Source of the DNA: Candidatus Neomarinimicrobiota bacterium
GTDB lineage: Bacteria > Fidelibacterota > UBA8477 > JABMPR01
Direction of reading: 5' to 3'
DNA length: 59,375 nucleotides
NCBI GenBank assembly: GCA_034716895.1
Contig: JAYEKW010000147.1
Location: forward strand, 1 to 59,375
Shown here: positions 2,136-40,783 of the stretch, piece after piece
Layout of the letters: every line of letters starts with the position of its first letter
How positions within the stretch are numbered: the first letter of the stretch is position 1
The notes under the pieces: generated by a model
Told to the model about the DNA's origin: nothing
The model's input: only the letters and a program-made list of their open reading frames with translations
Databases searched by the model: none
Position numbers and translations under genes: made by a program

Positions 2136-5100
2136 ATGAGATTATCAAAGATATTCATATCGTTAATACTGCTTGCTTGTGCTTCAATCCTCAATGCAAG
2201 TGAATCAGAACTTATTGAAAAAAGAGGGTTTTTCTCCAAAACATTCCAACTGGATAATGGACTGGAGAAGCTGGTAATACATGCTGGGCCAATTCATTAC
2301 GTCGATTCAGGCAATCGATTTGTTGAGGTAGGATACCCAGGAAGCTCAGATTACAATGATTTGTTGAGCATGGCAATGACTCAATCAGAACTCTGGTCAA
2401 ACATGGGAACTCCACATGAGTACAACAAGTTTGAGAATGATTGCACATATGATTCTGAGCCTGTGTTTGTTACTCAGGAAAGTGCAATAGCGGACTATCA
2501 AACTGTTAGATACTACACACAAATGCAATTTAACAACTCGAGTTTTGAACCTTACTATCAAATACAAAGTGTATCGCATAAAATGGCAGTTGGTAGTCAC
2601 ATTCAGTATGGTCCTACAGATAATGGAGAGTATACACTATTTGTAAAGGAATTCACTTTCCCAGAGGGTTCATATACCGATTGCGATGTTTACGATGCAA
2701 TTGGATCCGGAGATATTTTAGATCAAGTAGCAGTGGATTTCAGTAATTACATAGATCCGACGGGAGAGCAATCAGTTCTGTTACCTGATTTTGTATCAGT
2801 ATTTCAAGACATGGTGGATCAAGCACCAGTAGCCCAATTTATGAATGTAAGATTTGGGTATTCAATCGGGAATACAATTTATGATGTAGCTGATTTTTAC
2901 AATCTTTATCTAAACGGAGCTCCAACTTTGGAAGTTGTCTACAAAACAACTATTACCGGTATGTTGGCAAATCGACACTTGCCAACTCCAACTGCCGATA
3001 TGGGTGGTACTCTGAGTATTATTGATCATGATAATGCCGCACATACACATGAGCATATAGGAAGTCTGACTCCTGTAGAACTTAATCCCGGAGATATATG
3101 TACTGCCCTGACAGATAGCATTGGTTTTAATGCAAGTGAATTCCATCACCATTCTTGGAATAGTGTTACTGCATCAGGCTACTCAATTCAACTATCTCAG
3201 TTTCTTATTGATGAGACTGAATATGAAATCTCAGCCTTTTTCAATGACCAGTTTCAGTTGACCTTACCCACTGGTTCACCGGAAATATCACTTAAAGACC
3301 CCTGGTATGTTTCAAATCCTTCAGCTAATCCCGAGGATTGGATTCAGCCAAATATCTATCGAACAGTTGCTGAAATGCAAAGTGACAACAGTAGTCGGGT
3401 CTTTAAAGATCAGAATGATGATTTTTCTGATAGTATCCCCATCTACTATTTGAATGCCCCACAATTCACGGATGAAGGAAATGGTGAATACTTCATCTTT
3501 CACCATTGGGAAGGTAGCCATGTTCTGTACGGTGTAGGTCAAACAACTACAACTGATAATGAGACAACGGTTGTTTTTACATCAAGCTCCTCAGCGCCCC
3601 TCCCTTATTTTAACCAGCTATCGGTTAGTGGCGGTGCCAGTGTTTGGGAAGCATCTGATACGCTTTGGATTAAAGCCAGCCAATTTTATTATGAGAACAA
3701 TGATTTTTATGAATTCAGTCATTGGAGCGGTGATTCCATCACACTTGGGAATTCCACATCATATTTGACAACTGTTGAGGCTTTGTCCGGTGATGCAACC
3801 GCTACTGCGGTTTATAATACAGGCACAGCGTCAAACAGTATACAGAACAAGACCATTAATATTCATACCGATGAAAGTATCAGTATCCCTGCCGGCGCAA
3901 ATATTCAATTTGCAGAAGGAGTCACTATTGATATAGCAGGAAGCTTTTCCGTGAATGGTACACCAGGGAGTCCGGTTAATTTCGAGAGCACCGGGAGACA
4001 ATCGCCTTTTCCAGCCGCGATGACTGAGCATCCCTCTGTTCCACTCGACAAGCTTATCAAAATCACCGGTGATGGCGCAAACTGCACCATCACCTATTTG
4101 CAGCTTTCTGATGCCTATTGCGGTATTTCAATTGAAGGAGACAATGCCAATATAGAAATTGAGGATGTGACCTTCTCAGATTTGAATTATGCTCTCAATA
4201 TTGAGCCGGTCTCCAATACAACTTTTGAGATCAGTGGCAGCAAATTTCACAATCTTGATAATGGGATTGTCTATAGCACGAATATTAATAATCCCGGAGT
4301 TTCGACCTCAGGTCTGCTGCATCATAACGAATTCAGCGACATTGCAGATCGGGCTGTTTTTATTCGGCTCGAAACGAAGGTGTCCGGCAACAATTCCATA
4401 AATACCCTGGGAATCAGAGCTAATACTTTCTACAATAACGGCACCAGTATCTACTGCCAAAGAGAATCTGGAACAGCTACCTATTTTGGTGATTATTATT
4501 TATACATCACGAATACGCTTTTTTCCGAATCACCAACGCTGATGCTGCCTGACGATCAGGTAATTTACCTTGAAACATCCGAAGGGTATGAATCTGATAA
4601 TAATCTGTTCCATAATTCAGGTACAACCTGGTATATCGGTACTACAACAGCGGATCCCAAATTCGTTAATACATCAACTGGAGATCTGCGACTCTGTTAC
4701 GATAGCCCGGCAGTTGATGCAGGATTTGTTGATGATGATACAGATGACTGGCCGGATTTTTTTATTGATGAGGATCCTGATGGTACTGACCCTGAAATAG
4801 GCGCTTACTACTGCCCCCAAACCACATTATCCACAGCCACTTCCATTAATGCGGATACGGAATGGTATGGCATTTATAATATCAATGAAGATGTGTTTGT
4901 GAATACCGGCAAGACCCTCACCATTGTGCCGGGAAGTGTCTTGAGGTTCCCTGATCGCTCTGAGCGGGTTGTTTTTGATATCAACGGTAACCTGGTGGCA
5001 AACGGAAGCCCTGAAGCGCCCATCACCTTCACCAGCTCAGATGCAACACCTGCAAAAAATGACTGGAACGGTATTCGTATTTTTGGTACCTCAGATGATA

Positions 5101-5846
5101 ATGTGACGATTCTGGATAATTGTATTGTAGAGTATTCCTGCTATGGTATTTATCCTTACAGTACCAGCCCAAACATCAGCAATAATATCTCTCGAATGAA
5201 CACGTATGGATATTATGCTCGTTACAATAGCTCTGATGTCAATTCAAACCAGTTTGTCAAAAACACCTACGGAGTGCGTACTACTTATGCTTCCCCAACT
5301 TTCACCAACAACCTGATTCGGGATAACAGCTATCGGGGGATGTATTTCTATGGTACCAGTACTCCCAGGATGTATAACAATACCATCGATAGCTCCAACG
5401 GGTACGGAATTTACATGTATAATCATGTAGATGTGCAGTTCGGGCATGCAGGGGTCAACAATCCAGGTTACAATGAGATTATCAATAATGCTTCTTATGG
5501 TATATATGCCAGCTATTATTGTGATCCTTTTTTGGGTACATCTGACCCATATAATCAGCAGGTGGCCGGTGATAACAGTATCCATGATAATGGAACTTAC
5601 AACCTGAGAACTTACAATCATTCTACTGCAGAAGCAGAATGGAACTGGTGGGATAGCGAGACAACATGGAGCGCCTATTCATCCTCCAGTTATGATACGT
5701 CTCCGGTGCTAGGAAGCGCTCCGAGTGCTTCTTTACTTGGTTCTGATCTGGCAAAGGGTACTTCATATGATGGCTATGCTGATTGTCCTGCGATTAGGAA
5801 TTGCACTACTCCTTTTGCTTATCCCACTTGGATTGAAAGCAATTAA
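2136..5846 (+). CDS. Large secreted right-handed beta-helix protein
   Basis: A 1,236-residue exoprotein with a signal peptide (residues 1-21, ending ILNA). Residues about 25-440 match nothing I recognise. Two FHHWEGS / FSHWSGD modules (about 445-560) resemble divergent InlB B-type repeats. From about 565 the chain becomes a parallel beta-helix of the PbH1/NosD-like type, with a PAVDAG...DPEIGAYY block near 855-890 typical of 'choice-of-anchor Q' proteins, and a second helix from about 900 to 1190 rich in Asn-Asn and Tyr-Gly turns. No C-terminal sorting domain or catalytic residue is evident. Likely a surface adhesin or carbohydrate-binding/processing protein. Its last 80 bases overlap the start of the next gene in another frame. 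Good spacing to the start but only a modest SD (AAAAGGAATAATCAC). Confidence 0.8.
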   Translation: MRLSKIFISLILLACASILNASESELIEKRGFFSKTFQLDNGLEKLVIHAGPIHYVDSGNRFVEVGYPGSSDYNDLLSMAMTQSELWSNMGTPHEYNKFENDCTYDSEPVFVTQESAIADYQTVRYYTQMQFNNSSFEPYYQIQSVSHKMAVGSHIQYGPTDNGEYTLFVKEFTFPEGSYTDCDVYDAIGSGDILDQVAVDFSNYIDPTGEQSVLLPDFVSVFQDMVDQAPVAQFMNVRFGYSIGNTIYDVADFYNLYLNGAPTLEVVYKTTITGMLANRHLPTPTADMGGTLSIIDHDNAAHTHEHIGSLTPVELNPGDICTALTDSIGFNASEFHHHSWNSVTASGYSIQLSQFLIDETEYEISAFFNDQFQLTLPTGSPEISLKDPWYVSNPSANPEDWIQPNIYRTVAEMQSDNSSRVFKDQNDDFSDSIPIYYLNAPQFTDEGNGEYFIFHHWEGSHVLYGVGQTTTTDNETTVVFTSSSSAPLPYFNQLSVSGGASVWEASDTLWIKASQFYYENNDFYEFSHWSGDSITLGNSTSYLTTVEALSGDATATAVYNTGTASNSIQNKTINIHTDESISIPAGANIQFAEGVTIDIAGSFSVNGTPGSPVNFESTGRQSPFPAAMTEHPSVPLDKLIKITGDGANCTITYLQLSDAYCGISIEGDNANIEIEDVTFSDLNYALNIEPVSNTTFEISGSKFHNLDNGIVYSTNINNPGVSTSGLLHHNEFSDIADRAVFIRLETKVSGNNSINTLGIRANTFYNNGTSIYCQRESGTATYFGDYYLYITNTLFSESPTLMLPDDQVIYLETSEGYESDNNLFHNSGTTWYIGTTTADPKFVNTSTGDLRLCYDSPAVDAGFVDDDTDDWPDFFIDEDPDGTDPEIGAYYCPQTTLSTATSINADTEWYGIYNINEDVFVNTGKTLTIVPGSVLRFPDRSERVVFDINGNLVANGSPEAPITFTSSDATPAKNDWNGIRIFGTSDDNVTILDNCIVEYSCYGIYPYSTSPNISNNISRMNTYGYYARYNSSDVNSNQFVKNTYGVRTTYASPTFTNNLIRDNSYRGMYFYGTSTPRMYNNTIDSSNGYGIYMYNHVDVQFGHAGVNNPGYNEIINNASYGIYASYYCDPFLGTSDPYNQQVAGDNSIHDNGTYNLRTYNHSTAEAEWNWWDSETTWSAYSSSSYDTSPVLGSAPSASLLGSDLAKGTSYDGYADCPAIRNCTTPFAYPTWIESN

Positions 5847-12019: not shown

Positions 12020-15006
12020 TGAGTTGTATCTTCCTCAGCGTTATTGAACATGGGTTCGGAATTCAGGATAAATTGCATGTAAGCCGTCACATCAATTCCA
12101 GCCGAGAAGGGGAGTAAGGCCGGGTTGGGAGTTTCTGCCAGAATAAATTTGGTGGCAATGAAATGATCTCTGGGTTCAACCAGCCAACCCAATTCTCCAT
12201 AATCAGTGACATCTATCATGATCCACAATTCCTTACCATCCTCGCTGAGCGTCAAATTGTAGAGGCTATCAGCGACAGTCGGAGCAGCCAGCTCAGCCAG
12301 GGTTAAGGCTTCGGCAACATCTGTGAAAGCAGTATCAGACTTGGCCAGCAGAAAAGTGTCCAGGAAAGCGTACTGATGGTGGATCAGCGTTCCATAGGTT
12401 GAATCACCTTCAACATCATTCAGATTGAAGTCAGCAGAATAGGAATATTGGCCACTGCCCTCCATCCCCGGGATCACTAATCCTGTACTCGGATCAGTCG
12501 TACCAGCCGGAATCTGCAGTTGCAGGGTTTTCACCATGGGATGGGTGATCAGGGTATCCAGATCCAGGTCTACAGTATCTGCGGCTCCATCCTGATCCAG
12601 ATCTGCAGAAACCATAACTCGGTTTTCAACATTACTATAAAATGGAAAATAGGGAATATCTGAAACCAGGATCTCCAGACCGAAACCCAGACCAATATCG
12701 CTGAAAATGATAGTGTTGATGGTGGAACTAATGAGCATATCTGTCTTGTCCGGGATGCCGTTGCTACCCACCAGCTGCTTGATCGTACTGGAATCCAGGG
12801 CAGCCATTCTGGTAAAGGTCGGCGGCATAAATTCAACACCCCCAGCGGCAATACTTAACAGGAATGGTATTTCAAATCGCCAGGTACCAGCGATCTCTGC
12901 ACCGGCAGTAATAGAATTCAGGTTATCTGGTGAAATGACGGCATCGCCTCCAACGGACACGACATCAGGCATCATGGCCATGAGATCTACAATATTGCTT
13001 CCGGAATCAAAATGCTGGACAATGGTTTCATCACCATCAATGGTCTTCCGGACATATTCCCGGCTGATCCTGATTTCTGTTATTGCCGGACTGCCTGCTG
13101 CACCAGATTCAAAGGTCACCGAGTCAGGATTCAATTCCACAACGACACTATCGGTTCCCCGATACCCCTTTACCTGTAATCCAAGTCCTGGTGCTACCCC
13201 AAATTCATTTTCCAAAGTTATGGAAAGAATGGCTTCACCAAAGGAGATGCCGCCAACTAATCCGGGGAGACTAAGCGGTTGTTCCTGATCACTGATCGCA
13301 AAGCTAACCCCGAAAAAACCAGTTAGATCCTCGATCTTCAGGGAAGTCATCTCCACCTCCACATCCATGATCATCTCGTCAGGTGGTGGATAGGGAATTG
13401 ATATGGGACCGCCATCACTGCTAAATTGGATCTCAGTCTCAATGAGCAGGGAATCCAGGGGCACATTATCCCCTGTTGTATTACTGATCAGATGTCCGTC
13501 CAGTACCACAACCGTATCGGCAGTTCCGCCATCAGGCAGTACAAACTCCAGAATCTCATAGTTCCCGGCCGCCAGTTGTGCATCATTTTCATAAAAATTA
13601 CGTAGCTTGATCCGCAAAACTGAAATATCAAGCCCCATCCGGTTTGCCAGTGAGATACTCAGGCGATTTGTATCTTCGTGAGCAATATTATCTTCAAATG
13701 CGGCTGATACGATCTCCACGCTGAAACCTTGACCCGATTCGTCGGTAGAGCTGGTATTCATTTCCTGCATAAAGATCATGGTGGTATCGATCATATTGAC
13801 TTCCATACTCTGAAAGCCATCTATATCCATGGAAAAGCTGTAGTGGAAAAAGGGCTCAACTCGCTGGGGAAAAAATAAGGTATCACCAGGGGCCGTGGGA
13901 TTTATATATCCACCAAATTCAAAAATGAGACTGTCAAATACAGATACCCCATCCAGGGAAGAGACTTTGGTACTGTCTTCACCTTCAACCATATTCTGGG
14001 AAATGTGATCAAAAAAGTGACTGTGTAAACGGGTCGTATCACCATTGGCTTTCTTGGTGTAGACGATCAGGCCTGTATTTGAAAAGGTGAGCGGCATCTG
14101 GCTGTTAATGATTGATTCGATGGAGCCCGTTGAGATTGTGATGGATTCAAAGCTTTCAATAGGGGCATCAGCCGGCAGGATCGAGGGGTCAGGCAACAGG
14201 GCAAAAGCTTCTCTGAAAAGAGGCAGGGTATCAGCCGGTATATTGGGTGTTCCAGACATGGGATAAGTGATGGAACTATCACAAATAAAGTTAGGTGGGG
14301 GCGTAAGACAGGGAACACACCCACTTCCCGGATCATCTGAGGGAGCACTACCGGTGATAACATGTACATACCCTGGAATTGTTACCAAGCTATCATAATT
14401 CAGATCGGAGGGATCATCCCCAAAGCTGAACGAGATCGTATCTGATCGAATGGCTGTCGGGTCTTCACAAGAGGCATTGGGAATGCTATCCACCACAATA
14501 TCATCCATAGCAAAACCCAGATCAGCCAGGGTGATGGAGGCATTCTCAGGACCCACATGAATTCCATCATCCAGCTCAGCCGGTAAGATTGAAGCAATAT
14601 CGATGGGGCCGACACCCAATTCCATGGGATCCTGACCAGGGATCACAAACATATCTGCCGGTAAAGTGATGGGGGGCAGATCATTCTCCAACGTGATGTA
14701 AAGACCACCGGGATAATCAGCCAAAGTGTCAGGCAATAGAATGTCCATGAATCCATCACTATTGGTATCCACTGAATCCCCATAGACCTGGATAGTGCCT
14801 GTTGTATCAGAAGCCAATAGACCATCAAAAGGATAGTTTTCTGAGACCAGGGGAATGGTCAGAGTAACCTGCCAGGTTGGCATAACAACCTTGGTGGGTA
14901 GTCCAAAATCACATTGGATCACCAGGGCACCGAAGGTTAGCGCCATTAGAATCCCTGTGAAGCGAGCCTTAAATTTTGATGAGCTAATGATCTTCCTTAC
15001 CTTCAA
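12016..15006 (-). CDS. Large lipoprotein, beta-rich, family not recognised
   Basis: A 996-residue protein with an N-terminal signal and lipobox (ALVIQC, Cys32), followed directly by PTWQVTLTIPLVSENYP, an opening I associate with big lipoproteins of Marinimicrobia-like genomes. The body is acidic, Thr/Ser-rich and dominated by short beta-strands, consistent with repeated Ig-like or jelly-roll modules; I cannot name a domain. No catalytic motif is visible. It is coupled by an ATGA-type 4-bp overlap to the downstream barrel gene (10646-12019). That overlap suggests a surface lipoprotein working with an outer-membrane protein, as a plug, adhesin or export partner. The gap to ahcY is 57 bp. Confidence 0.65.
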   Translation of the reverse strand: MKVRKIISSSKFKARFTGILMALTFGALVIQCDFGLPTKVVMPTWQVTLTIPLVSENYPFDGLLASDTTGTIQVYGDSVDTNSDGFMDILLPDTLADYPGGLYITLENDLPPITLPADMFVIPGQDPMELGVGPIDIASILPAELDDGIHVGPENASITLADLGFAMDDIVVDSIPNASCEDPTAIRSDTISFSFGDDPSDLNYDSLVTIPGYVHVITGSAPSDDPGSGCVPCLTPPPNFICDSSITYPMSGTPNIPADTLPLFREAFALLPDPSILPADAPIESFESITISTGSIESIINSQMPLTFSNTGLIVYTKKANGDTTRLHSHFFDHISQNMVEGEDSTKVSSLDGVSVFDSLIFEFGGYINPTAPGDTLFFPQRVEPFFHYSFSMDIDGFQSMEVNMIDTTMIFMQEMNTSSTDESGQGFSVEIVSAAFEDNIAHEDTNRLSISLANRMGLDISVLRIKLRNFYENDAQLAAGNYEILEFVLPDGGTADTVVVLDGHLISNTTGDNVPLDSLLIETEIQFSSDGGPISIPYPPPDEMIMDVEVEMTSLKIEDLTGFFGVSFAISDQEQPLSLPGLVGGISFGEAILSITLENEFGVAPGLGLQVKGYRGTDSVVVELNPDSVTFESGAAGSPAITEIRISREYVRKTIDGDETIVQHFDSGSNIVDLMAMMPDVVSVGGDAVISPDNLNSITAGAEIAGTWRFEIPFLLSIAAGGVEFMPPTFTRMAALDSSTIKQLVGSNGIPDKTDMLISSTINTIIFSDIGLGFGLEILVSDIPYFPFYSNVENRVMVSADLDQDGAADTVDLDLDTLITHPMVKTLQLQIPAGTTDPSTGLVIPGMEGSGQYSYSADFNLNDVEGDSTYGTLIHHQYAFLDTFLLAKSDTAFTDVAEALTLAELAAPTVADSLYNLTLSEDGKELWIMIDVTDYGELGWLVEPRDHFIATKFILAETPNPALLPFSAGIDVTAYMQFILNSEPMFNNAEEDTTQ

Positions 15007-29122: not shown

Positions 29123-30178
29123 ATGACTAGAAGAGAACGTGTTATATCAGCCCTGCACCGTCAGGAAACCTCCAGAGTCCCCATCGGTGAGATCGGTGGT
29201 GGCTACACCGAATCCATTATCAAAGCCTTACTGGGCGATGACCATCAGACTGGCCCTGATTCTTATTATCACAACCATGTAAATGTCCGGCAGCTTCTTG
29301 GCGCAGACATTATGGGTGCCCGTGTAGCTGGTCCCCCGGTGGAAGTAGTTGGCACTCATGAAGATTGGGGAACAGAGGTTTTCAAAGATTTCTGGGGTGC
29401 CACCCATACCCAACCTCCGGAAGCTACCGTTCAACTGGTGGAACCCATTGCAAATACACCTGAAGAACTCGACAAATGGGCTGCTCCTGACGTAAGCAAG
29501 TTTGACAAAGCCCCAATCAGACGCTGGAAGACAAATACGGATCTTTTTGTCATGTCAACCCTGAACGCCGGCTTTGACCTGGGTTACGAAATTCTGGGTT
29601 TCGAACGCTTCATGATGTGGACTGTTCAAGCACCGGATGTCATGTTAAGGTATTACGAAAAGCTGATTCAGACCAATTTGGAGCTGGCGCTCATGAGTGC
29701 TGAAGCGGGTGCCGATGCAGTGCTTATCGCTGATGACCTGGCTTTCAATACCGGTACTTTCGTGGATCCAGCTTATCTCCGTAAGGACTATTTTCCCCTA
29801 CTAAAGAATATGATCACTGACATTAAAACAACCGGTCTTCCGGTTTTCTTTCACTCGGATGGCGACTTACGAACCATCATACCCGATTTGATCGATTGCG
29901 GCATTGAGGTATTGCAGTCCTGTGACCCCAACGCCAACATGGATATTCCCTCTTTGAAGCAGGAATATGGACGAGATCTGGCATTCATGGGCAATATTGA
30001 TGTGGATCTGTTGGCCAATGGCAGTGTGGAGGAGGTTCAGAGAACTACCCGGGATCTCATTCGCGATGCAAGAGCCGGCGGGGGCTTTATTTTAAGCACC
30101 AGCAATGTGGTTGCTTCTTATTGTAAACCTGAAAATGTAAAAGCCATGTACGCAATTGCCCATGAGGAGTTGACCTAA
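29123..30178 (+). CDS. UroD-family corrinoid methyltransferase
   Basis: A 351-residue protein of the uroporphyrinogen-decarboxylase superfamily. It lacks the N-terminal decarboxylase signature and resembles the MtaA/MtbA/MtgB-type methyltransferases that move methyl groups to or from a corrinoid protein. A TIM-barrel layout is visible: TRRERVISALHRQE at the start, EAGADAVLIADDLA near 190-205, and FFHSDGDLRTIIPDLIDCG near 245-265 where zinc-type relatives have H-x-C. Here the Cys position is Asp, so it may be the non-zinc branch. The stop abuts the start of the corrinoid-protein gene with no spacer, strongly implying a functional pair. Methyl donor and acceptor are unknown. Confidence 0.85.
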   Translation: MTRRERVISALHRQETSRVPIGEIGGGYTESIIKALLGDDHQTGPDSYYHNHVNVRQLLGADIMGARVAGPPVEVVGTHEDWGTEVFKDFWGATHTQPPEATVQLVEPIANTPEELDKWAAPDVSKFDKAPIRRWKTNTDLFVMSTLNAGFDLGYEILGFERFMMWTVQAPDVMLRYYEKLIQTNLELALMSAEAGADAVLIADDLAFNTGTFVDPAYLRKDYFPLLKNMITDIKTTGLPVFFHSDGDLRTIIPDLIDCGIEVLQSCDPNANMDIPSLKQEYGRDLAFMGNIDVDLLANGSVEEVQRTTRDLIRDARAGGGFILSTSNVVASYCKPENVKAMYAIAHEELT

Positions 30179-30820
30179 ATGTCTCTTGATAATATTCAAC
30201 AGGCCATCATTCTGGGAAATGTTGCTTCCATTTCCAGCTCAGTGCAAAACCTTTTGGAACAAGGGCAGACTGCCCAGCAAATTCTCGATCTGCAATTGTT
30301 ACCCGGCATGGCAATTGTCGGTGAACGTTTTAAGCGGAATGAAATGTTCCTACCCCAGGTTCTTATGTCTGCTCAAGCTATGCAAACGGCTATTGATATC
30401 CTCAAGCCACATCTGATCCAGGATGCAACCGGTTCTAGCAGAAATACTGTTGTCATTGGTACCGTGAAGGGTGATATGCACGACATCGGCAAAAATCTGG
30501 TGCGGATCATGCTGCTGGGGGCAGGATTTGAAGTGATCGATCTAGGTGTTAATGTTCCGCCTCAACGCTTTCTGGAAGCTACCGCTACCCACCAGGCTCA
30601 AGTTGTCTGTCTTTCAGCATTGTTATCATCAACCATGAACAATATGCGTGAAATAGTGCAGCTCTTTCGAAATGATGAAATCCTGCATTCCACCAAGATC
30701 ATGATTGGGGGTGCCCCGGTGAATCGAGCATTCTCAGAATCTATTGGAGCAGATGGTTATGCCCCAACAGCGCCTGGGGCAGTTGAGCGGATTCAGGGAT
30801 TAGTTTTTAACGATCGGTAG
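30179..30820 (+). CDS. Corrinoid (B12)-binding methyltransferase protein
   Basis: A 213-residue two-domain protein of the MtaC/MtbC/MttC type. A helical B12-2 cap (about residues 1-85) precedes a Rossmann-like B12-binding domain (about 88-213). The cobalt-ligating motif D-x-H-x-x-G is present as GDMHDIGKNL with His101 as lower ligand. It shuttles a methyl group for the UroD-type partner encoded immediately upstream. No reductive activator (RamA-like) gene is in the window. Its last 21 bases overlap the 3' end of the convergent histidine-kinase gene, so both transcripts are antisense to each other there. Confidence 0.92.
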   Translation: MSLDNIQQAIILGNVASISSSVQNLLEQGQTAQQILDLQLLPGMAIVGERFKRNEMFLPQVLMSAQAMQTAIDILKPHLIQDATGSSRNTVVIGTVKGDMHDIGKNLVRIMLLGAGFEVIDLGVNVPPQRFLEATATHQAQVVCLSALLSSTMNNMREIVQLFRNDEILHSTKIMIGGAPVNRAFSESIGADGYAPTAPGAVERIQGLVFNDR

Positions 30821-32018: not shown

Positions 32019-33257
32019 TTAGCTGGTCTCAAAAGGGATGGGGATCTGATGCTTGGATTTCGGCAACAGATTGAAACCAACAGCGGGAAGGTCAACGATG
32101 AATTTAGTGCCAACGCCTTCTTCAGATTCGATGGAGATGATACCATCATGTTCATCGATGATCCGTTTTACAATGGCCAGTCCCAGACCAGTTCCTTTTC
32201 GTTTTCCAAATGTATAAAATTCCTTGAAAGCATTTTCCTTTACTTCGTCCGACATTCCAATGCCATTGTCCTCCAAAATAATTCTGACACCAGTCTCCAC
32301 CTCCAGACTGTGCACGGTAAACACTCCCTCTTTATCCAAAATATCAAGAGCGTTCATGGCAATATTCTCCAGAACCCTGAAAAACCGACCGGTGTCGATG
32401 CGTACTTCCCCTTTAAACTGAAGGTCTCGTACAAAAGAGATGTCTTGATTCTCAAATCTAAGTACCAGCGAGTCACAACATTCCTGGAGATATCCAGCCA
32501 TCTGGACTGATTTCAGCCGCATCTGGTCGCCACCCTGGGCAAAAGACAGTAGATCCTGGGTCATGCTGGTGAATTGGATCACTTGTTTGGCGATAATATC
32601 CGCATATTTAATGAGTTGTTCATTACTGTGCTTTTTCATCTTGATCAACTGGGCATAACCACCAATTGTGGACATGGGATTTTTCATATCGTGTAGAATA
32701 GTTGAAGCCATACGACCAATAAGAGAAAGACGTTCCTTGCCGATCAGCTCTTCCTGAGTCTCCTGCAGCAGGTAATTCATATGTCGTAATTCATCATTCT
32801 CTTTTTTAAGTTTGTTGATGAGTCGCTTGTCAGTTTCTCTGAGAAATTGAGATATATTTTTCGCAATAGATAGTGTAAAAAGCGGAACAGTTTGAACGAG
32901 TTCAAGAAAATCCGCTTTTGACACAGCCAATACCTCACAGCTTGTATCAGCGATCATCCCAGCACTTCTAGGTTTATCTTCCAACAAAGCCATCTCACCA
33001 AAAAAACCACCGACCTCATCATAGAATCCCAGCAATTCAGAGTTGCCTTCATTAATTCTCTTTTCAATTCTGACTTTGCCAGAGGCAAGAATAAATATAT
33101 GATCCCCAATGGAACCTTCACGAATTATGGATTCTTCATGATTATAACGACGAAATTCCAGCTTTTTTAAAAGGTGTTTTAATTCAACCTCAGGAATATG
33201 CTCAAAGACCTTCCATTTTCTGAGATCTTCATAAGGGGGACTCTTTATCAGCTTCAT
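32019..33257 (-). CDS. Histidine kinase with N-terminal cyclic-nucleotide-binding domain (paralog 2)
   Basis: A 412-residue kinase with the same plan as its neighbour. The cNMP domain (about 15-130, GGFFGEMALLEDKPRSAG) is followed by a linker, HisKA with His189 (STILHDMKNP), and HATPase_c (ENIAMNALDIL, DNGIGMS, GTGLGLAIVKR). The C-terminal 17 residues extend past the paralog. It is upstream of paralog 1 with a 31-bp gap, so both are probably on one transcript. Two sensors with the same input fold but diverged binding pockets may hetero-dimerise or read different ligands. The 33258-33737 gap upstream holds hairpins and is shared with the divergent NosL operon. Confidence 0.88.
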   Translation of the reverse strand: MKLIKSPPYEDLRKWKVFEHIPEVELKHLLKKLEFRRYNHEESIIREGSIGDHIFILASGKVRIEKRINEGNSELLGFYDEVGGFFGEMALLEDKPRSAGMIADTSCEVLAVSKADFLELVQTVPLFTLSIAKNISQFLRETDKRLINKLKKENDELRHMNYLLQETQEELIGKERLSLIGRMASTILHDMKNPMSTIGGYAQLIKMKKHSNEQLIKYADIIAKQVIQFTSMTQDLLSFAQGGDQMRLKSVQMAGYLQECCDSLVLRFENQDISFVRDLQFKGEVRIDTGRFFRVLENIAMNALDILDKEGVFTVHSLEVETGVRIILEDNGIGMSDEVKENAFKEFYTFGKRKGTGLGLAIVKRIIDEHDGIISIESEEGVGTKFIVDLPAVGFNLLPKSKHQIPIPFETS

Positions 33258-33737: not shown

Positions 33738-34877
33738 ATGAATAAACGCATATTCCTTACTCTTATTCTGTTGTTGAGTGTTAATATTCTTTTAGCTCAA
33801 TCAAGATTTGTGAAATCAGCTCAAACAGACCAGGCCATGTTATTGCAAACAGGTCAGGCAAAAACCTGGTGTCCAATTTGCGGTATGAATCTCATGCTGT
33901 TCTACAAAACCAACCATGCTTTGGAACTGGCCGATGGAAGCACCCATCAGTATTGTTCTATCCGTTGCCTGGCGGTTGATCTTAAGGATCACCCCGATCA
34001 AATTACTCACGCACAGGTGGTTGATGTCAATAGTGAACGGTTCATCGCTGTACAGGATGCCCACTATGTCATTGACAGCAAAGTTTCCGGTACCATGACC
34101 CGTGAGAGTAAACTCGCCTTTGGCTCATTTGAGGAGGCAAAACAATTCAGCAAAAAGCATGGCGGAAGAACTATTCTCGGGTTCACCGAAGCCCTTGATC
34201 TAGCCCGTACTCAAATGCAGGCTGATAATGCCATGTTGATGAAAAAGAAACAAAGCATCGTTTTTCCCAAGGGGGAAAAATTATTCAACAAATTTTCCGC
34301 AGAAATAGGAACTTTGCCTCCATTTGAATCTATCGTGGATCTGAAGGCTCACCTTAAAACCCGTTCAGGCTGTAAATCTTTGGATGAGAAAAAACTCCAG
34401 ATGCTGGCTTTGTATATTTTTAACGCTAATCAGCAGCATTCAGGTAGGCAGCCTGCAGCACAGGTCATTCAGGTCTCAAAAGATGAGAAGTGCCCGGTCT
34501 GTGGCATGTTTGTTTATAAGTATCCTCGCTGGGTTGCTGTTCTGAATATCACGATCAACAACCAACCTAAAAAGTTATATTTTGATGGTGTAAAAGACCT
34601 GATGAAGTTTTACCATAACCCTCAAAAATGGGGAAAATACGAGCACCTTAAAATCCACGAGGTAGTCGTTACCGATTACTATCAGCAAACTGCCCTGGAT
34701 GGTAGAAAAGCTGAATATGTCATTGGGAGCGATATTTTAGGACCCATGGGGCATGAACTCATTCCCTTTGACTCTATAACTCAAGCCAAAGTATTTCTAG
34801 ATGATCATGCAGGATCTCGAATTCTCAAATTTAGCGAGATCACAGAGCAGCTTATTTCCGATCTAGACAATAATTGA
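33738..34877 (+). CDS. Periplasmic protein with two NosL domains
   Basis: I place the start at ATG 33738, which opens a signal peptide (residues 1-20, ILLA|Q); the ORF extends upstream to 33642 without such a signal. The 379-residue product has NosL domain 1 with WCPICGM (Cys45, Cys48, Met50) and a further Cys73/Cys77 pair. NosL domain 2 has KCPVCGM (Cys252, Cys255, Met257) and SDILGPMGHELIPF (Met337). Known NosL proteins bind Cu(I) through this C-x-x-C-G-M type site and help mature nitrous oxide reductase. The linker (about 178-229, KGEKLFNKF...GCKSLDEKKLQMLALYIF) resembles a cytochrome-c-like fold without the heme motif C-x-x-C-H. It is the first gene of a tight five-gene operon. Confidence 0.85.
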   Translation: MNKRIFLTLILLLSVNILLAQSRFVKSAQTDQAMLLQTGQAKTWCPICGMNLMLFYKTNHALELADGSTHQYCSIRCLAVDLKDHPDQITHAQVVDVNSERFIAVQDAHYVIDSKVSGTMTRESKLAFGSFEEAKQFSKKHGGRTILGFTEALDLARTQMQADNAMLMKKKQSIVFPKGEKLFNKFSAEIGTLPPFESIVDLKAHLKTRSGCKSLDEKKLQMLALYIFNANQQHSGRQPAAQVIQVSKDEKCPVCGMFVYKYPRWVAVLNITINNQPKKLYFDGVKDLMKFYHNPQKWGKYEHLKIHEVVVTDYYQQTALDGRKAEYVIGSDILGPMGHELIPFDSITQAKVFLDDHAGSRILKFSEITEQLISDLDNN

Positions 34878-34897
34878 ATCGGACTGACTGATATCTC

Positions 34898-35215
34898 TTG
34901 AGTCCAAAAACCAACTTAACGCTCGGTGCATTGGTTCTGGTTATCCTGGCCACCCTGGTTGAGGGAGGATTATTGCTGGGGAACCAGCAGGAGCAGGCAA
35001 CTCAAAAAGCGATCAAACGGCAAGCGGTGGAATTGACTCAACTCCCTGACCTTGCCCTGATCACTGAAACAACCTGGCTTCGGCATCGCAGCCTGACCAC
35101 ACCCCATGCAATTTTTCCTGAAGATGGCTCTCTGCTTGACTATTATCCTGCCAGCTTTGTATACAATATCGCAATTGTGCAATCTGAACCGGGGGTCGCC
35201 AGACGTGAACCTTAA
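34898..35215 (+). CDS. Small single-TM protein of the NosL-ABC operon
   Basis: A 105-residue protein that starts at TTG 34898 with a weak upstream GGA. One membrane segment (about residues 8-27) is followed by a periplasmic stretch with LPDLALITETTWLRHRSL and PHAIFPEDGSLLDYYPASF. It has no Cys, so it is not an obvious metal carrier itself. I cannot assign a family. Its tight position, 20 nt after the NosL gene and overlapping the permease start by 11 bases, argues that it is a real subunit or adaptor of the transporter rather than chance. Confidence 0.65.
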   Translation: MSPKTNLTLGALVLVILATLVEGGLLLGNQQEQATQKAIKRQAVELTQLPDLALITETTWLRHRSLTTPHAIFPEDGSLLDYYPASFVYNIAIVQSEPGVARREP

Positions 35216-36383
35216 ACTAATTGATTATGGTATAAGCTCTCTTTGGAGAAGATTTTGGAATCGCTTCACTGTTATTCTGATCTTTTCCCTTCTGGTCTTT
35301 CTACTGGTTTCTGTTTTTAGTATTTCAAGTTCGATCAGACTGGAGTTGGGGATTACGCTTGAGGCCTTGCCGGAGTTGATTGTCCAAAAAATGAATGGCG
35401 GGCGGCAAACAGTCATCCCATCTGAACGAGCTTATGAAATCGCCACCATCCCCGGTGTGAATACAGCAATCCCCCGAGTCTGGGGTTACTATTATTTTGG
35501 TAGTGCAAACGTCAACTTCACTGTCATTGGTCAGGATCCTGATCTGGATAGCTACAAGGCCAAGTATTCTAAACTGTTTGAACTGAATGCTTCTCTGATC
35601 GATACCTTGACTACACCCTTTTTCCTGGCAGGTCAAGGTGTGGTGGAAATCATGGATCAGTATTACTTCAGGGATGAGTTTTTCTTTATTACTGCAAATG
35701 GCAATATTTTAAACCTTGCATTGGCCGGCACTTTCTCAGATGAATCTTCATTAGAGACCAATGACGTGATCTTAATGCCGGAATATCTGGCTCGTGAACT
35801 GTTTGATATCTATGAAGACGATGCAACCGATATTGTAGTTCGAGTTTCCAATCCAGCTGAAATTGAGATCGTAAAACAGAAGATTCAATTCATGTACCCT
35901 GATTGCCGCATCATCAGCAAAGATCAAATTGAGAGCTCCTACCAGAATGTATTCGACTACAAATCCGGTTTATTTCTCGCTTTACTGATTCCTGCATTTA
36001 TGGCCTTTTTCACAATGGTCTATGACAAAGCTAGCGGTCTAAGTTTGGAGGAAAAACGCGAGATCGGCATTATGAAAGCTGTGGGTTGGCGAGTGGAAGA
36101 TGTCCTTATCCTGAAGCTTCTGGAAAGTGGCTTTATTTCACTTTTTTCATATTTTAGCGGTGTTGCGCTTAGCTTTTTCTTTGTTTACACTTTGGATGCG
36201 CCCTTGTTAAAAAATCTATTTATTGGGGCTGGAAATTTAAAACCAGCCTTTCAACTTACCCCTGTGATCGATGTCCACATCTTGAGCTTGAGTTTTATGG
36301 CTATCGTCCCGGTTTACATTCTAGCCACGATTATCCCAGCGTGGAGAACAGCTATTATTGATGCAGATGAGGTCATGCGATGA
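35205..36383 (+). CDS. FtsX/MacB-like ABC permease
   Basis: GTG at 35205 with GGGGG about 9 nt upstream is the best start and overlaps the small gene by 11 bases; an ATG at 35106 would add 33 residues read from inside that gene. The 392-residue product has one N-terminal membrane segment (about 22-45), a large periplasmic MacB-PCD-like domain (about 50-255) and three C-terminal segments (about 260-385). EIGIMKAVGWRVEDVLILK is the typical coupling helix of the MacB/LolCE/FtsX family. Such permeases act mechanically on periplasmic partners rather than passing small solutes. Its stop overlaps the ATPase start by 4 bases. Confidence 0.85.
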   Translation: MNLKLIDYGISSLWRRFWNRFTVILIFSLLVFLLVSVFSISSSIRLELGITLEALPELIVQKMNGGRQTVIPSERAYEIATIPGVNTAIPRVWGYYYFGSANVNFTVIGQDPDLDSYKAKYSKLFELNASLIDTLTTPFFLAGQGVVEIMDQYYFRDEFFFITANGNILNLALAGTFSDESSLETNDVILMPEYLARELFDIYEDDATDIVVRVSNPAEIEIVKQKIQFMYPDCRIISKDQIESSYQNVFDYKSGLFLALLIPAFMAFFTMVYDKASGLSLEEKREIGIMKAVGWRVEDVLILKLLESGFISLFSYFSGVALSFFFVYTLDAPLLKNLFIGAGNLKPAFQLTPVIDVHILSLSFMAIVPVYILATIIPAWRTAIIDADEVMR

Positions 36384-37048
36384 TTCACCTTGATGCAGTT
36401 GACCTCGTTTTTAACTCCGGTTTGATTAATGAGATGACCGCCCTGAGAAACATCACTTTTTCTGTAGTTGAAAATGAGTTTTTATTGCTGCGGGGAGCCA
36501 GTGGAAGTGGTAAAAGCAGTATTTTCTCGCTGGTAGCAGGGTTAGTCAAACCAACCCGGGGAGATGTGATCATTGATGGTCACTCCATTGCCAAAATTCC
36601 GGATAGTTACGCTGCTGTAATGCGGCGAGAAAAAATTGGAGTGATTTTCCAGAAATTCAATCTGATCCATGATCTATCAGTATACGATAACGTGATCCTG
36701 CCGTTGATTCCTTCCACCCAGTCAAAGCATGAAATCCGATTAGCCACTGAAGAACTGTTAACCGACTTATCCTTGATCGATAAATCAAATACATCAGTGC
36801 GTTATCTTTCCGGTGGTGAACAACAACGAGTTGCCATAGCCAGAGCCCTGGTTAACAGGCCTAAGATAATCCTGGCTGACGAACCAACTGCCAACCTTGA
36901 TCAAGGTCTGATCGAATCCTTTCTACAGATCATACGTGATCTAAAAACAAGTGGTATCACTGTCTTGATAGCCAGTCATGACCCCCTATTTTCCAAGCTG
37001 GACTGCATTGATCGTATTTTGGATATCTCTGGTGGTAAACTTCAGTGA
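36380..37048 (+). CDS. ABC transporter ATP-binding protein (LolD/MacB type)
   Basis: A 222-residue ATPase. Visible motifs are Walker [10 protein letters not shown] (about residues 40-48), Q-loop FQKFN, signature LSGGEQQR, Walker [12 protein letters not shown] and the switch His in ASHD. Length and motif set fit the LolD/MacB/FtsE-like (o228) class that powers type VII mechanotransmission permeases, matching the upstream gene. It overlaps both neighbours by 4 bases, so it is translationally coupled with the permease and the following membrane protein. Confidence 0.93.
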
Positions 37049-38010
37049 GCGTACTTCTCAGTCCTGAGGTCATCATACTTTTCATTGAGGATGTTTTGCT
37101 TTTGGGTTTTAATTCCCTGGCTGTTTTCCTGGCCTTTAATATCCAAAAAGACTTTGATCTCAACCAAACCACTGCACTGCAGTATCGTCTGGAGCGGCTG
37201 ACTTATCTGGTTTCAACTATCATCCGCTTCTCATTGATTATAAAGATATTCAGCTTTGTTTTTTTCATCTTTACTTTAGACAAACTTTCGAACATTATTC
37301 CTGGAGCCATGTGTGGTGCCGGCGTCACCAATGCTTCACCTTACGGCAGTTATGTTCTGCTCGTCAAGCTTTTTAGCCTTTATCTTTTTGGGGTTTGGTT
37401 GATGATCGACCGGGAGGACCAGAAAACGGAGGACTATCGATATACGGTAAAGAAGTTTAGATATTTTATCATCATTTACCTGTTCTTCCTGATCGAATTA
37501 AGTCTGCAATATCTTTATCTCAGTGACATCGATCCTGAAAAAATCGTGAGTTGTTGCGGTACTGTTTTCAACGCTGCCAGCACCAGTTTTGCCGGGCAGT
37601 TACTCAATATCCCAAATGGAATCGTACTTCCCTCATTCTATACTATTTTTGCTCTGCTCATGTGGACCAGCTTGCGTCAGGATGTCATTTGGACCGGTAT
37701 TCTCAACCTCTTCTTTTTGGCTTTTGGACTGCTAACCCTGATCAGTTTTTTCAGCACCTATATCTACGAGCTACCCAGCCACCAGTGTCCATTCTGTTTA
37801 CTCCAAGGCGACTATCACTATGTTGGGTATCTGATCTATGCCCTGTTATTAAGCGGATCTTTCTTTGGGATCGCTGCTTTGGCTCTTAATCTTTTCTTAG
37901 GGATTCACCTCAAGATCTTAAAGCTATCCATCTTACTCAATACCGCCTTTGTCGTACTGGTCTCGGCCTACCCCCTGTTCTATTACATCAGGAATGGGGT
38001 TTGGCTGTAA
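37045..38010 (+). CDS. Cysteine-bearing polytopic membrane protein of the NosL-ABC operon
   Basis: A 321-residue protein starting at GTG 37045 (4-base overlap with the ATPase). It has about eight membrane segments. Cysteines lie in short loops: PGAMCGAG (near residue 92), VSCCG (near 170) and HQCPFC (near 250). The C-P-F-C pair recalls DsbB/VKOR-like or metal-relay sites, but no quinone or family signature is certain. I recognise no named family. Its position as the last gene of the NosL/ABC operon suggests it moves electrons or metal ions across the inner membrane to the Cys-x-x-Cys sites of the periplasmic NosL protein; this is inference. A strong terminator follows. Confidence 0.75.
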   Translation: MSVLLSPEVIILFIEDVLLLGFNSLAVFLAFNIQKDFDLNQTTALQYRLERLTYLVSTIIRFSLIIKIFSFVFFIFTLDKLSNIIPGAMCGAGVTNASPYGSYVLLVKLFSLYLFGVWLMIDREDQKTEDYRYTVKKFRYFIIIYLFFLIELSLQYLYLSDIDPEKIVSCCGTVFNAASTSFAGQLLNIPNGIVLPSFYTIFALLMWTSLRQDVIWTGILNLFFLAFGLLTLISFFSTYIYELPSHQCPFCLLQGDYHYVGYLIYALLLSGSFFGIAALALNLFLGIHLKILKLSILLNTAFVVLVSAYPLFYYIRNGVWL

Positions 38011-38021
38011 CCGTTAAAATG

Positions 38022-38053
38022 AAAAACGCCCAGCATGTGCCGAGCGTTTTTTT
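38022..38053. terminator. Bidirectional intrinsic terminator
   Basis: AAAAACGC (38022-38029) pairs with GCGTTTTT (38044-38051), with a T7 run on the plus strand and an A-rich (T-rich on minus) arm on the other side. It lies between the convergent NosL-ABC operon and ppdK and can end both. Confidence 0.85.
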
Positions 38054-38074: not shown

Positions 38075-40783
38075 CTAAGCTTCGCGAATAACTGCCTGAG
38101 CAGCGGCCAATCTGGCGATGGGTACCCGGTAAGGTGAACAACTCACATAATCCAGACCAGCCCTGTGACAGAATTCAACTGAACTTGGCTCACCGCCATG
38201 TTCACCACAAATTCCCAGCTTGATATCGGGACGGGTTTCTTTTCCGAGCCTACAAGCCATCTCAATCAATTGGCCAACACCTTCCTGATCAAGCACTTCG
38301 AAAGGATCATTCTTCAAGATGCCTTTTTCCAGGTAAACTGGCAGAAACTTTCCTGCATCATCACGAGAATATCCGAAGGTCATCTGTGTCAGATCATTGG
38401 TACCGAATGAGAAAAATTCAGCACTGGTTGCGATTTTGTCAGCCGTCAATGCTGCCCGTGGAATTTCGATCATGGTTCCAACCAGGTGATCGATAGACTC
38501 ACCCGTTTCAGCAAACAGGGCTTTGATCGTTTCCCGAACAAACTCTTCCTGCATCTTCATTTCGGTCAAGGTTCCGGTCAACGGGATCATGATCTCCGGC
38601 TTGGCAACAATGCCTTTAGCTTGAAGAGCTAAAGCAGCACCCATAATAGCCCGGGTCTGCATCACGGTGATCTCAGGATAAGTGTTTCCCAAGCGACAAC
38701 CACGGTGACCCAACATGGGATTGAATTCAGACAAATCTTCAACTTTTGCCTTAATATCAGCAACTGAAATGCCCATGACATCGGCCATTTCCTGTTGACC
38801 CTTTTCATCATGAGGAACAAACTCATGGAGTGGGGGGTCAAGGAGACGAACGGTAACGGGAAGATCCTGCATGGCTTCAAAGATACCTTCGAAATCCTTT
38901 TGCTGAATTGGCAACAATCTCTCAAGGGCAGCCTCTCGACCAACAACATCCTCAGCCAGGATCATTTCGCGCATGGCTATGATCTTATCGCCTTCAAAGA
39001 ACATGTGCTCTGTCCGACAGAGGCCAATTCCCTTGGCACCAAATTCACGCGCGATTTTACTCTCCCGGGGAGTATCAGCATTGGTTCGAACATACATCCT
39101 GGCATATTTATCAGTGATGCCCATGAGCTTACCAAAATCACCACTTACTTCAGGATCAATGGTTTTGATCTTATCCAGGAAAATCTCACCGGTGGAACCG
39201 TTAAGGGAAACCCAGTCACCCTCGTTAAAGACTTCGCCATTAATTGTCATTGTACGGGTTTTGTAGTTGATTTTCAATTCTCCAGCACCGGACACACAGC
39301 ATTTTCCCATTCCACGCGCAACAACTGCAGCATGAGAGGTCATGCCACCGCGAGCGGTTAAGATCCCATTGGCGATATTCATGCCTTCCAGATCTTCAGG
39401 AGAGGTCTCCATTCGGGTTAGAATTGTATCCTTATACTTATTTGCTTCGTCTGCAAAGAATACCAACTGACCGGTTGCTGCTCCTGGAGAAGCTGGCAAA
39501 CCTTTGGTAAGCCGTTTTGCAGAAGCCATGGCTGCTTTGTCAAAAACAGGGTGTAGCAATTCATCCAATTTGTTTGGTTCAATATGCATCAAGGCTTCTT
39601 TTTCATCGATCTCGCCTGCAGCAAGCTGCTCCATGGCAATCCGTACCATGGCAGCGCCAGTCCGTTTTCCACTACGGGTTTGAAGCATCCAAAGCTTACC
39701 ATCCTGGATGGTGAACTCAATATCCTGCATATCCTTATAATGATCTTCAAGCTTGGTTTGATAATCATCCAGTTCAGTGTAGATCTCCGGCATTAATTCT
39801 TCCAGAGAAGGAAAATTCTTTATCCGCTCCGCCTCGCTTACATCTGCCAGTACCGCCCAGCGCTCCGAGCCTAATTTGGTAATCTGCTGAGGTGTCCGCA
39901 CACCGGCAACCACATCTTCACCCTGAGCGTTGATCAGGTATTCTCCATTGAAAACATCTTCACCTGTCCCAGCATCACGGGTAAAAGCTACACCTGTTCC
40001 AGAGTTGTCGCCCATATTACCGAAGACCATGGCCTGTACGTTGACAGCTGTGCCCCAGTCACCAGGGATTTTATTCATTTTGCGATAATAGATGGCTCTG
40101 GGGGTTTCCCATGAATCAAAAACTGCCATAACGGATCCCCAGAGTTGCTCCCAGGGATTATCGGGAAATTCTTTACCGGTTTGTTTTGTAACAGCAGCTT
40201 TAAATCTTGATACCAGATTTCTGAGATCTTCAACGGTGAAATCTGTATCCAATTCAACACCACGTTCTTCTTTTAATGCTTCCATGATGGCTTCGAAGGG
40301 ATCGATATCCTCTTTGGATTGTGGTTTCATGCCGAGTACGACGTCACCGTACATCTGAACAAAACGGCGGTATGAATCCCAGGCAAAACGATCATTACCG
40401 GATTTTTTGGCCAACGCTTCAACGGCGCTATCATTCATCCCCAGATTCAGAACCGTATCCATCATCCCAGGCATGGAAACTCTGGCTCCTGAGCGAACGG
40501 AGATCAATAATGGATTTTCAGGATCACCAAATTTTGCACCCATGGTTTCTTCGGTTTGGGTAATAGCAGCTTCAACTTCTGCTTTGATCAGAGCAACGGT
40601 TTGTTCCTGACCAATTTTGTTATACTCGGTACAAACCTCTGTGGTAATTGTAAAACCTGCAGGAACCGGAATCCCCAGGCCACTCATCTCAGCCAGGTTA
40701 GCACCCTTACCACCCAGAAGATTCCGATAGGAAGCATCTCCTTCAGCTTTTCCTCCACCAAATACGTAAACATGTTTTGCCAT
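38075..40783 (-). CDS. ppdK: Pyruvate, phosphate dikinase
   Basis: A 902-residue PPDK that interconverts pyruvate, ATP and phosphate with PEP, AMP and pyrophosphate. It serves as a reversible glycolytic or gluconeogenic enzyme, common in anaerobes. The N-terminal ATP-grasp part (LGGKGANLAEM at 23-33) is followed by the swivelling domain with the catalytic His in GGMTSHAAVVARGMGK (about 460-475). The C-terminal PEP/pyruvate TIM barrel has IGLCRTEHMF, LGHRGCRLG and the Cys region GICGEHGGEP. Length is as expected. SD AGGATGA precedes the ATG. It is transcribed as a single gene. Confidence 0.97.
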   Translation of the reverse strand: MAKHVYVFGGGKAEGDASYRNLLGGKGANLAEMSGLGIPVPAGFTITTEVCTEYNKIGQEQTVALIKAEVEAAITQTEETMGAKFGDPENPLLISVRSGARVSMPGMMDTVLNLGMNDSAVEALAKKSGNDRFAWDSYRRFVQMYGDVVLGMKPQSKEDIDPFEAIMEALKEERGVELDTDFTVEDLRNLVSRFKAAVTKQTGKEFPDNPWEQLWGSVMAVFDSWETPRAIYYRKMNKIPGDWGTAVNVQAMVFGNMGDNSGTGVAFTRDAGTGEDVFNGEYLINAQGEDVVAGVRTPQQITKLGSERWAVLADVSEAERIKNFPSLEELMPEIYTELDDYQTKLEDHYKDMQDIEFTIQDGKLWMLQTRSGKRTGAAMVRIAMEQLAAGEIDEKEALMHIEPNKLDELLHPVFDKAAMASAKRLTKGLPASPGAATGQLVFFADEANKYKDTILTRMETSPEDLEGMNIANGILTARGGMTSHAAVVARGMGKCCVSGAGELKINYKTRTMTINGEVFNEGDWVSLNGSTGEIFLDKIKTIDPEVSGDFGKLMGITDKYARMYVRTNADTPRESKIAREFGAKGIGLCRTEHMFFEGDKIIAMREMILAEDVVGREAALERLLPIQQKDFEGIFEAMQDLPVTVRLLDPPLHEFVPHDEKGQQEMADVMGISVADIKAKVEDLSEFNPMLGHRGCRLGNTYPEITVMQTRAIMGAALALQAKGIVAKPEIMIPLTGTLTEMKMQEEFVRETIKALFAETGESIDHLVGTMIEIPRAALTADKIATSAEFFSFGTNDLTQMTFGYSRDDAGKFLPVYLEKGILKNDPFEVLDQEGVGQLIEMACRLGKETRPDIKLGICGEHGGEPSSVEFCHRAGLDYVSCSPYRVPIARLAAAQAVIREA

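Follow-up and report, generated by a model that had tools for sequence, protein, structure and literature searches.

What could a NosL protein and its partner genes be doing in a genome in which no nitrous oxide reductase is found? The question is raised by five genes on a contig of a Candidatus Neomarinimicrobiota bacterium, the whole of which (59,375 nucleotides; hereafter, the window) was analyzed. On balance, we favor reading the block as a transferable accessory module, powered by ATP, that would deliver Cu(I) in the periplasm to respiratory copper enzymes, namely, NosZ and cbb3 oxidase.

Anatomy of the block and its proteins

The block (33738-38010) consists of five open reading frames on the forward strand, with neighbors that overlap or lie about 20 bases apart. 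It is followed by a terminator and bordered on both sides by genes on the reverse strand:

32019..33257, reverse strand: left border, outside the block; sensor kinase of the cyclic-nucleotide-binding type, conserved in the genus
33738..34877, forward strand: P1, dual-NosL periplasmic protein, 379 aa (PF05573 twice, AF2/Foldseek, motif conservation)
34898..35215, forward strand: P2, small one-helix membrane protein, TTG start (alignment of 22)
35205..36383, forward strand: P3, ABC permease of the FtsX/MacB type, GTG start, overlaps P2 (PF02687)
36380..37048, forward strand: P4, ABC ATPase, FtsE/LolD-like, 222 aa (PF00005)
37045..38010, forward strand: P5, Cys-rich membrane protein with eight helices, GTG start (66-sequence alignment, AF2)
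38021..38052, forward strand: intrinsic terminator hairpin followed by a T run (MFE -11.9 kcal/mol for the stretch, z -3.1)
38075..40783, reverse strand: right border, outside the block; pyruvate phosphate dikinase (PPDK), named by reading

The terminator hairpin was missed by a simple scan and picked up by the folding-energy computation, and a promoter scan gave a count at background level, so that no promoter is assigned to the block. At 29123-30820, beside two sensor kinases, a uroporphyrinogen-decarboxylase-like methyltransferase has a corrinoid-binding-like protein as its neighbor (by reading only).

Both halves of P1 match the NosL family (PF05573), with 62 bits for the N-terminal and 100 bits for the C-terminal half against a Pfam cut-off of 24, and each carries a CxxCGM motif (residues 45-50 and 252-257). 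For known NosL, Cu(I) binding has been traced to a conserved CXM motif plus a second Met that is also conserved (PMC6530538). Each half of P1 has this combination, and an alignment of relatives shows it conserved: C48-G49-M50 with M120 in the N-terminal half, C255-G256-M257 with M337 in the C-terminal half. The best Foldseek matches of the P1 model (AF2, mean pLDDT 86.6) are the NosL structure 7og7 and the NosDFYL complex 7osf. The protein starts with a signal helix and is not a predicted lipoprotein, the lipobox Cys near the signal-peptide cleavage region being absent from P1 and most aligned relatives. A search with PF05573 found no NosL in the window genome outside P1. The linker between the halves, described earlier as cytochrome-like and heme-less, gave a weak Foldseek match to cytochrome c552 (E 1.4), which lends that description weak backing; a cytochrome c origin was set aside because its fold matches were weak.

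P2 has no Pfam or NCBIfam match, and P50, L52, and R62-H63-R64 are invariant in the alignment of 22 sequences. In a Sulfurimonas lineage with the block on the ftsZ side, a membrane peptide of 65 aa that lacks the RHR motif takes its place (L012:3301-3498). P3 scores 35.8 bits against FtsX (PF02687), above the cut-off, and falls below the cut-offs of MacB_PCD (PF12704; 21.1 bits, cut-off 27) and LolCE (28 bits, cut-off 362); a Bacteroidetes MAG has the permease gene in two frames (L010:8158-9339), a frameshift or an assembly error. P4 matches PF00005 with 116 bits and stays under the equivalog cut-offs of FtsE (200 bits, cut-off 265) and LolD (176 bits, cut-off 308), to which it is nevertheless closest. 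By these scores, the pair is assigned neither to MacB nor to FtsEX or LolCDE, and the block encodes no HlyD-type adaptor of the kind that defines MacB exporters.

P5 belongs to a membrane protein family covered by neither of the profile libraries used (Pfam and NCBIfam). Its AF2 model (mean pLDDT 89.5) has eight transmembrane helices and no match in the PDB at an E-value of ≤0.001 (Foldseek). The top match, CcmF, is nonsignificant (E 0.6), and recurring weak matches, to CcmF and to complexes of cytochrome oxidase, were disregarded, none being significant. The loops carry the motifs MCG, SCCG, and CPFC, and M89, C90, C170, C171, H246, C248, and C251 are invariant in 66 sequences; all of the invariant Met, Cys, and His residues are predicted to be periplasmic from the distribution of Lys and Arg. 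Several Campylobacterota genomes, G497, G500, and G538 among them, have two or three diverged copies of P5 (about 50% and 36% identity to the query), which suggests paralogous blocks with different roles.

The anatomy drawn in the earlier note thus stands: five same-strand genes with a closing terminator, a lead protein with two NosL domains, a permease and ATPase of the mechanotransmission type, and a polytopic protein with the three Cys-containing loops. The note would have doubted itself had the second half of P1 shown no NosL profile match; this half gave the higher score.

Conservation, selection, and insertion

A contig scan identified 442 relatives of P5, and the best 80, nearly all from Campylobacterota, were fetched; the gene order is mostly kept. 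Among these best 80, 50 loci had at least 5 kb of sequence upstream of P5. P4 adjoins P5 in 47 of the 50 and P3 comes next in 46; a NosL protein lies within 5.5 kb in 45, P2 is recognizable in 35, and all five genes are present in 31. The NosL protein has dual length in 14 of these 50 loci, and other loci have a NosL protein with a single domain; hence, the dual protein is one form among the relatives. All five genes are under purifying selection, as judged by dN/dS values between the window and a sister genome, G016 (a Candidatus Neomarinimicrobiota MAG), of 0.09 (P1), 0.14 (P2), 0.05 (P3), 0.07 (P4), and 0.04 (P5), with several dS values near saturation. The block is therefore more than a chance arrangement, since its order is kept in most relatives, the loss of which the earlier note had named as grounds for rejection, and since dN/dS is low (0.04 to 0.14) for every gene.

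Within the genus, only the window genome and G016 have the block, at the same site. In 15 other members the sensor kinase gene directly abuts that of PPDK and the block is missing; it is thus a discrete insertion of 4.3 kb. P5 is rare in the phylum (3 of 245 genomes) and far more common in Campylobacterota (107 of 298 genomes). In the two sampled classes around the Ignavibacteriales and Bacteroidetes matches, full matches to P5 are confined to the one known genome each, next to two further marginal partial matches. The P5 tree groups the window and G016 with the Ignavibacteriales and Bacteroidetes sequences, and one branch separates this group from the Campylobacterota sequences. The simplest reading is that the block moved as a unit, most likely out of the Campylobacterota, a direction that we infer.

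Association with nos and cytochrome oxidase genes

A profile search of the window genome, whose assembly is 95% complete (258 contigs), found no NosZ, although one could lie in the missing 5%. Nor was a genuine NosD found in this genome: the matches to the NosD model are weak (best, 44 bits) and were dismissed, since they fall in beta-helix proteins of a generic kind, most of which far exceed NosD in length. The 44-bit match is a 1,236-aa protein with a beta-helix stretch (2136-5846) that is probably a surface protein. The genome does have a CcoN-family protein, found by search, in a cluster reading ccoI-ccoNO-ccoP-ccoG-ccoH, where CcoI, P, G, and H were named by reading against annotated relatives. 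cbb3 oxidase is near universal in the sampled genomes; two genomes with P5, both possibly incomplete, lack a COX1 match, and one of them, G067, also lacks NosZ.

In other genomes the block is often close to nos genes, which lie within 10 kb in 16 of the 34 loci with full flanks. In Campylobacterota it directly follows nosD-G-C-C-H-F-Y-L at L016, L019, L021, L031, and L036 and is convergent with a nos cluster at L024, L054, L059, L070, L077, and L084. At L078 it sits inside the nos cluster (nosF-lipoprotein-P2-P3-P4-P5-lipoprotein-nosY), so that the same gene order within a nos cluster is found in relatives and not in the window. A genome paper of 2016 reported that the nos cluster of Sulfurospirillum cavolei has five genes inserted between nosL and nosY, among them those for an ABC permease, an ATPase, and hypothetical proteins; it gave the insertion no function and mentioned no dual NosL (PMC4794192). 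This insertion matches L078 in composition, by a comparison of descriptions rather than of sequences. Two positions, one between nosF and nosY and one downstream of P5, repeatedly hold a gene for a short CxxCxM lipoprotein (L016:4724-5233; L054:10954-11442 and 13357-13833; L112:3434-3898; L108:4037-4543). One member (L111:9172-9609) matches NosL and the others match no Pfam family; the lipoprotein looks like a divergent one of the NosL type.

P5 and NosZ also occur together across genomes. Among the 298 Campylobacterota genomes, 68 have both P5 and NosZ, 39 have P5 only, 21 have NosZ only, and 170 have neither; NosZ is thus present in 68 of 107 genomes with P5 and in 21 of 191 without (odds ratio 14, Fisher p 3e-21, in a test that ignores shared ancestry). 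Even so, NosZ is no constant companion of the block, since 39 of the 107 P5 genomes lack it, several of them consisting of one near-complete contig. In Sulfurimonas the block has a second stable location, flanked by an M48 peptidase, prmC, and DUF4149 at one end and by ftsZ-ftsA at the opposite end; this location has no nos genes. Outside the phylum, the two closest relatives (Ignavibacteriales and Bacteroidetes) have the block next to CcoG, FixH/CcoH, DsbD_2, and SCO1, and the Bacteroidetes contig also carries nosZ, nosDFY, and cbb3 genes. A DsbD_2 protein is a recurrent neighbor. In G067 the block follows a CusBA-like pair (an RND pump and a CusB-like protein) in an operon-like manner. Closer to the window, G016 has a NosZ cluster on another contig, and 14 of 15 NosZ-bearing genus members lack P5, which makes the block dispensable for NosZ in the genus. 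At L148 (genome G438) it lies beside an intact nosY and a NosL gene in a genome without NosZ, with transposase-like open reading frames adjacent, as in a decayed nos cluster.

The absence of nosZ, which the earlier note had made a defining feature, therefore holds for the window genome, which has no nos cluster near the block, but not in general. Likewise, a periplasmic role with metal or thiols survives as the best inference from its proposal of a self-contained Cu(I) or thiol-metal system, but a separate system defined by the lack of nosZ is not supported, given the nearby nos genes, the co-occurrence of P5 and NosZ, and the S. cavolei insertion. By its own standard, under which a nosZ/nosDFY cluster within a few genes in this genome or most relatives would count against it, the note is thus partly contradicted. 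Because the block is often found beside genes for the assembly of nitrous oxide reductase or cytochrome oxidase, it is probably an aid to known copper enzymes and not a system entirely of its own.

Candidate role in copper delivery and the alternatives

How might such a helper work? We hypothesize that P1 is exported and serves as a chaperone with two Cu(I) sites of the NosL type, each made of the CGM motif and the second Met of its half. P3 and P4 would form an ABC machine of the FtsX/LolC type in which ATP moves the periplasmic part and so drives copper hand-over; the pair would work like NosFY in NosDFYL and would not carry copper through the membrane, although P3 and P4 could equally be an exporter. 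P5, with its Met, Cys, and His residues on the periplasmic face, may receive Cu(I), keep it reduced, or pass it on, acting as a membrane acceptor or reductant, and P2 may be a small coupling subunit. Copper would go to NosZ in genomes that have it and to the CuB site of cbb3 oxidase, the likely client in the window genome.

The copper reading is likely; copper as the metal, the direction of transfer, and the roles of ATP, P5, and the clients are what we infer. Copper delivery is suggested by the match of P1 to NosL in both sequence and predicted fold, the copper-related gene context in several lineages, the co-occurrence of P5 with NosZ, and the predicted periplasmic position of the invariant residues of P5. 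The cbb3 oxidase is a likely client given the cbb3 cluster of the window genome and the P5 tree, which places the window with the two lineages in ccoGH/SCO context; oxidases as clients rest on the gene contexts of these two lineages and on the presence of the near-universal cbb3. Against the reading stand the NosZ-bearing genus members that lack P5, the two P5 genomes with no COX1 match, one of which has no NosZ match either, and the neglect of shared ancestry in the co-occurrence test. Our literature search found no experiment on any member of the block. A NosL family protein that a proteome paper found increased on pyruvate fermentation in S. multivorans was set aside as evidence for the block, and the literature on copper stress in Nitratiruptor gave no usable copper evidence.

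The co-occurrence with NosZ would also be expected if the block were a dedicated accessory of NosZ maturation, present in the window genome as a leftover after loss of NosZ or serving a NosZ encoded in the unassembled part. The position between nosF and nosY at L078, as in S. cavolei, the NosZ cluster of G016, with the block at the same site, and the relic-like locus of G438 fit this explanation. We nevertheless regard it as unlikely, though worth keeping in mind, because many P5 genomes lack NosZ, including near-complete single contigs, the Sulfurimonas location is stable without nos genes, and most NosZ-bearing members of the genus lack the block. Detoxification of copper or another soft metal, in which NosL sequesters the metal and the ABC pair and P5 help to clear the periplasm, would explain the RND pump and CusB-like protein next to the block in G067, and P3 has the MacB/FtsX-like fold that exporters use. 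However, this neighborhood is limited to one lineage, the neighbors elsewhere are cuproenzyme assembly genes, and the block lacks an outer membrane channel as well as an adaptor, which makes detoxification improbable.

Two further explanations have even lower probability. The block might help in periplasmic thiol redox reactions or cytochrome c maturation, with P5 moving reducing equivalents and metal binding being secondary. The CPFC and CC pairs of P5 on the periplasmic side, the recurrent DsbD_2 neighbor, and CcmF as the top, albeit weak, fold match point this way, but that match is nonsignificant and NosL is a family of copper chaperones, so that we give this idea little credence. Least credible of all is a machine like LolCDE that would release the small CxxCxM lipoproteins beside the block: the better scores of P3 and P4 come with the LolCE and LolD/FtsE models, and many loci have a gene for a short CxxC lipoprotein after P5, but P1 has no lipobox, the LolCE score is far under its cut-off, and in the window P5 has no lipoprotein of this kind beside it.

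Among known systems, the preferred reading, ATP-driven copper delivery, brings the block close to the NosDFY-NosL assembly complex of nitrous oxide reductase (PDB 7OSF-7OSJ and 7ZNQ), which joins a NosL-type Cu(I) chaperone, matched by the P1 model, to a membrane ABC pair. In contrast to this complex, the block has a permease of the FtsX type instead of the ABC-2 type (NosY) and an ATPase of the FtsE/LolD type; it contains no NosD, has P2 and P5 in addition, and its NosL is duplicated and lacks a lipobox. With LolCDE, FtsEX, and MacB it shares an FtsX-fold permease and a matching ATPase, whereas its scores stay under the cut-offs that define LolCE, LolD, FtsE, and MacB, and its partners differ. 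In its permease and membrane protein, the block may also resemble iron uptake of the P19/FetMP type, with its FtsX-like ABC transporter. The S. cavolei insertion is like the L078 block in having an ABC permease, an ATPase, and hypothetical proteins in a nos cluster. ccoG, ccoH, and SCO genes are direct neighbors of the block in the two nearest lineages; to our knowledge, the established copper assembly factors of cbb3 oxidase (CcoG/CcoH/CcoI and SCO) include neither a NosL nor an ABC pair or a P5.

The block is best described as an uncharacterized accessory module of known cuproenzyme assembly. More tentatively, it may represent a distinct class of horizontally transferred, ATP-driven copper-loading machines, in which an FtsX-type ABC transporter, partnered by a membrane protein whose fold is undescribed, acts on NosL proteins and serves both nitrous oxide reductase and cbb3 oxidase; we see this as possible but would not yet lean toward it. 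NosL alone is no marker for nosZ. Copper supply to NosZ and cbb3 oxidase limits the removal of N2O and respiration at low oxygen, and a conserved module in about one-third of the sampled Campylobacterota genomes can be addressed directly by genetics in Sulfurimonas, Sulfurospirillum, and Arcobacter, which are culturable.
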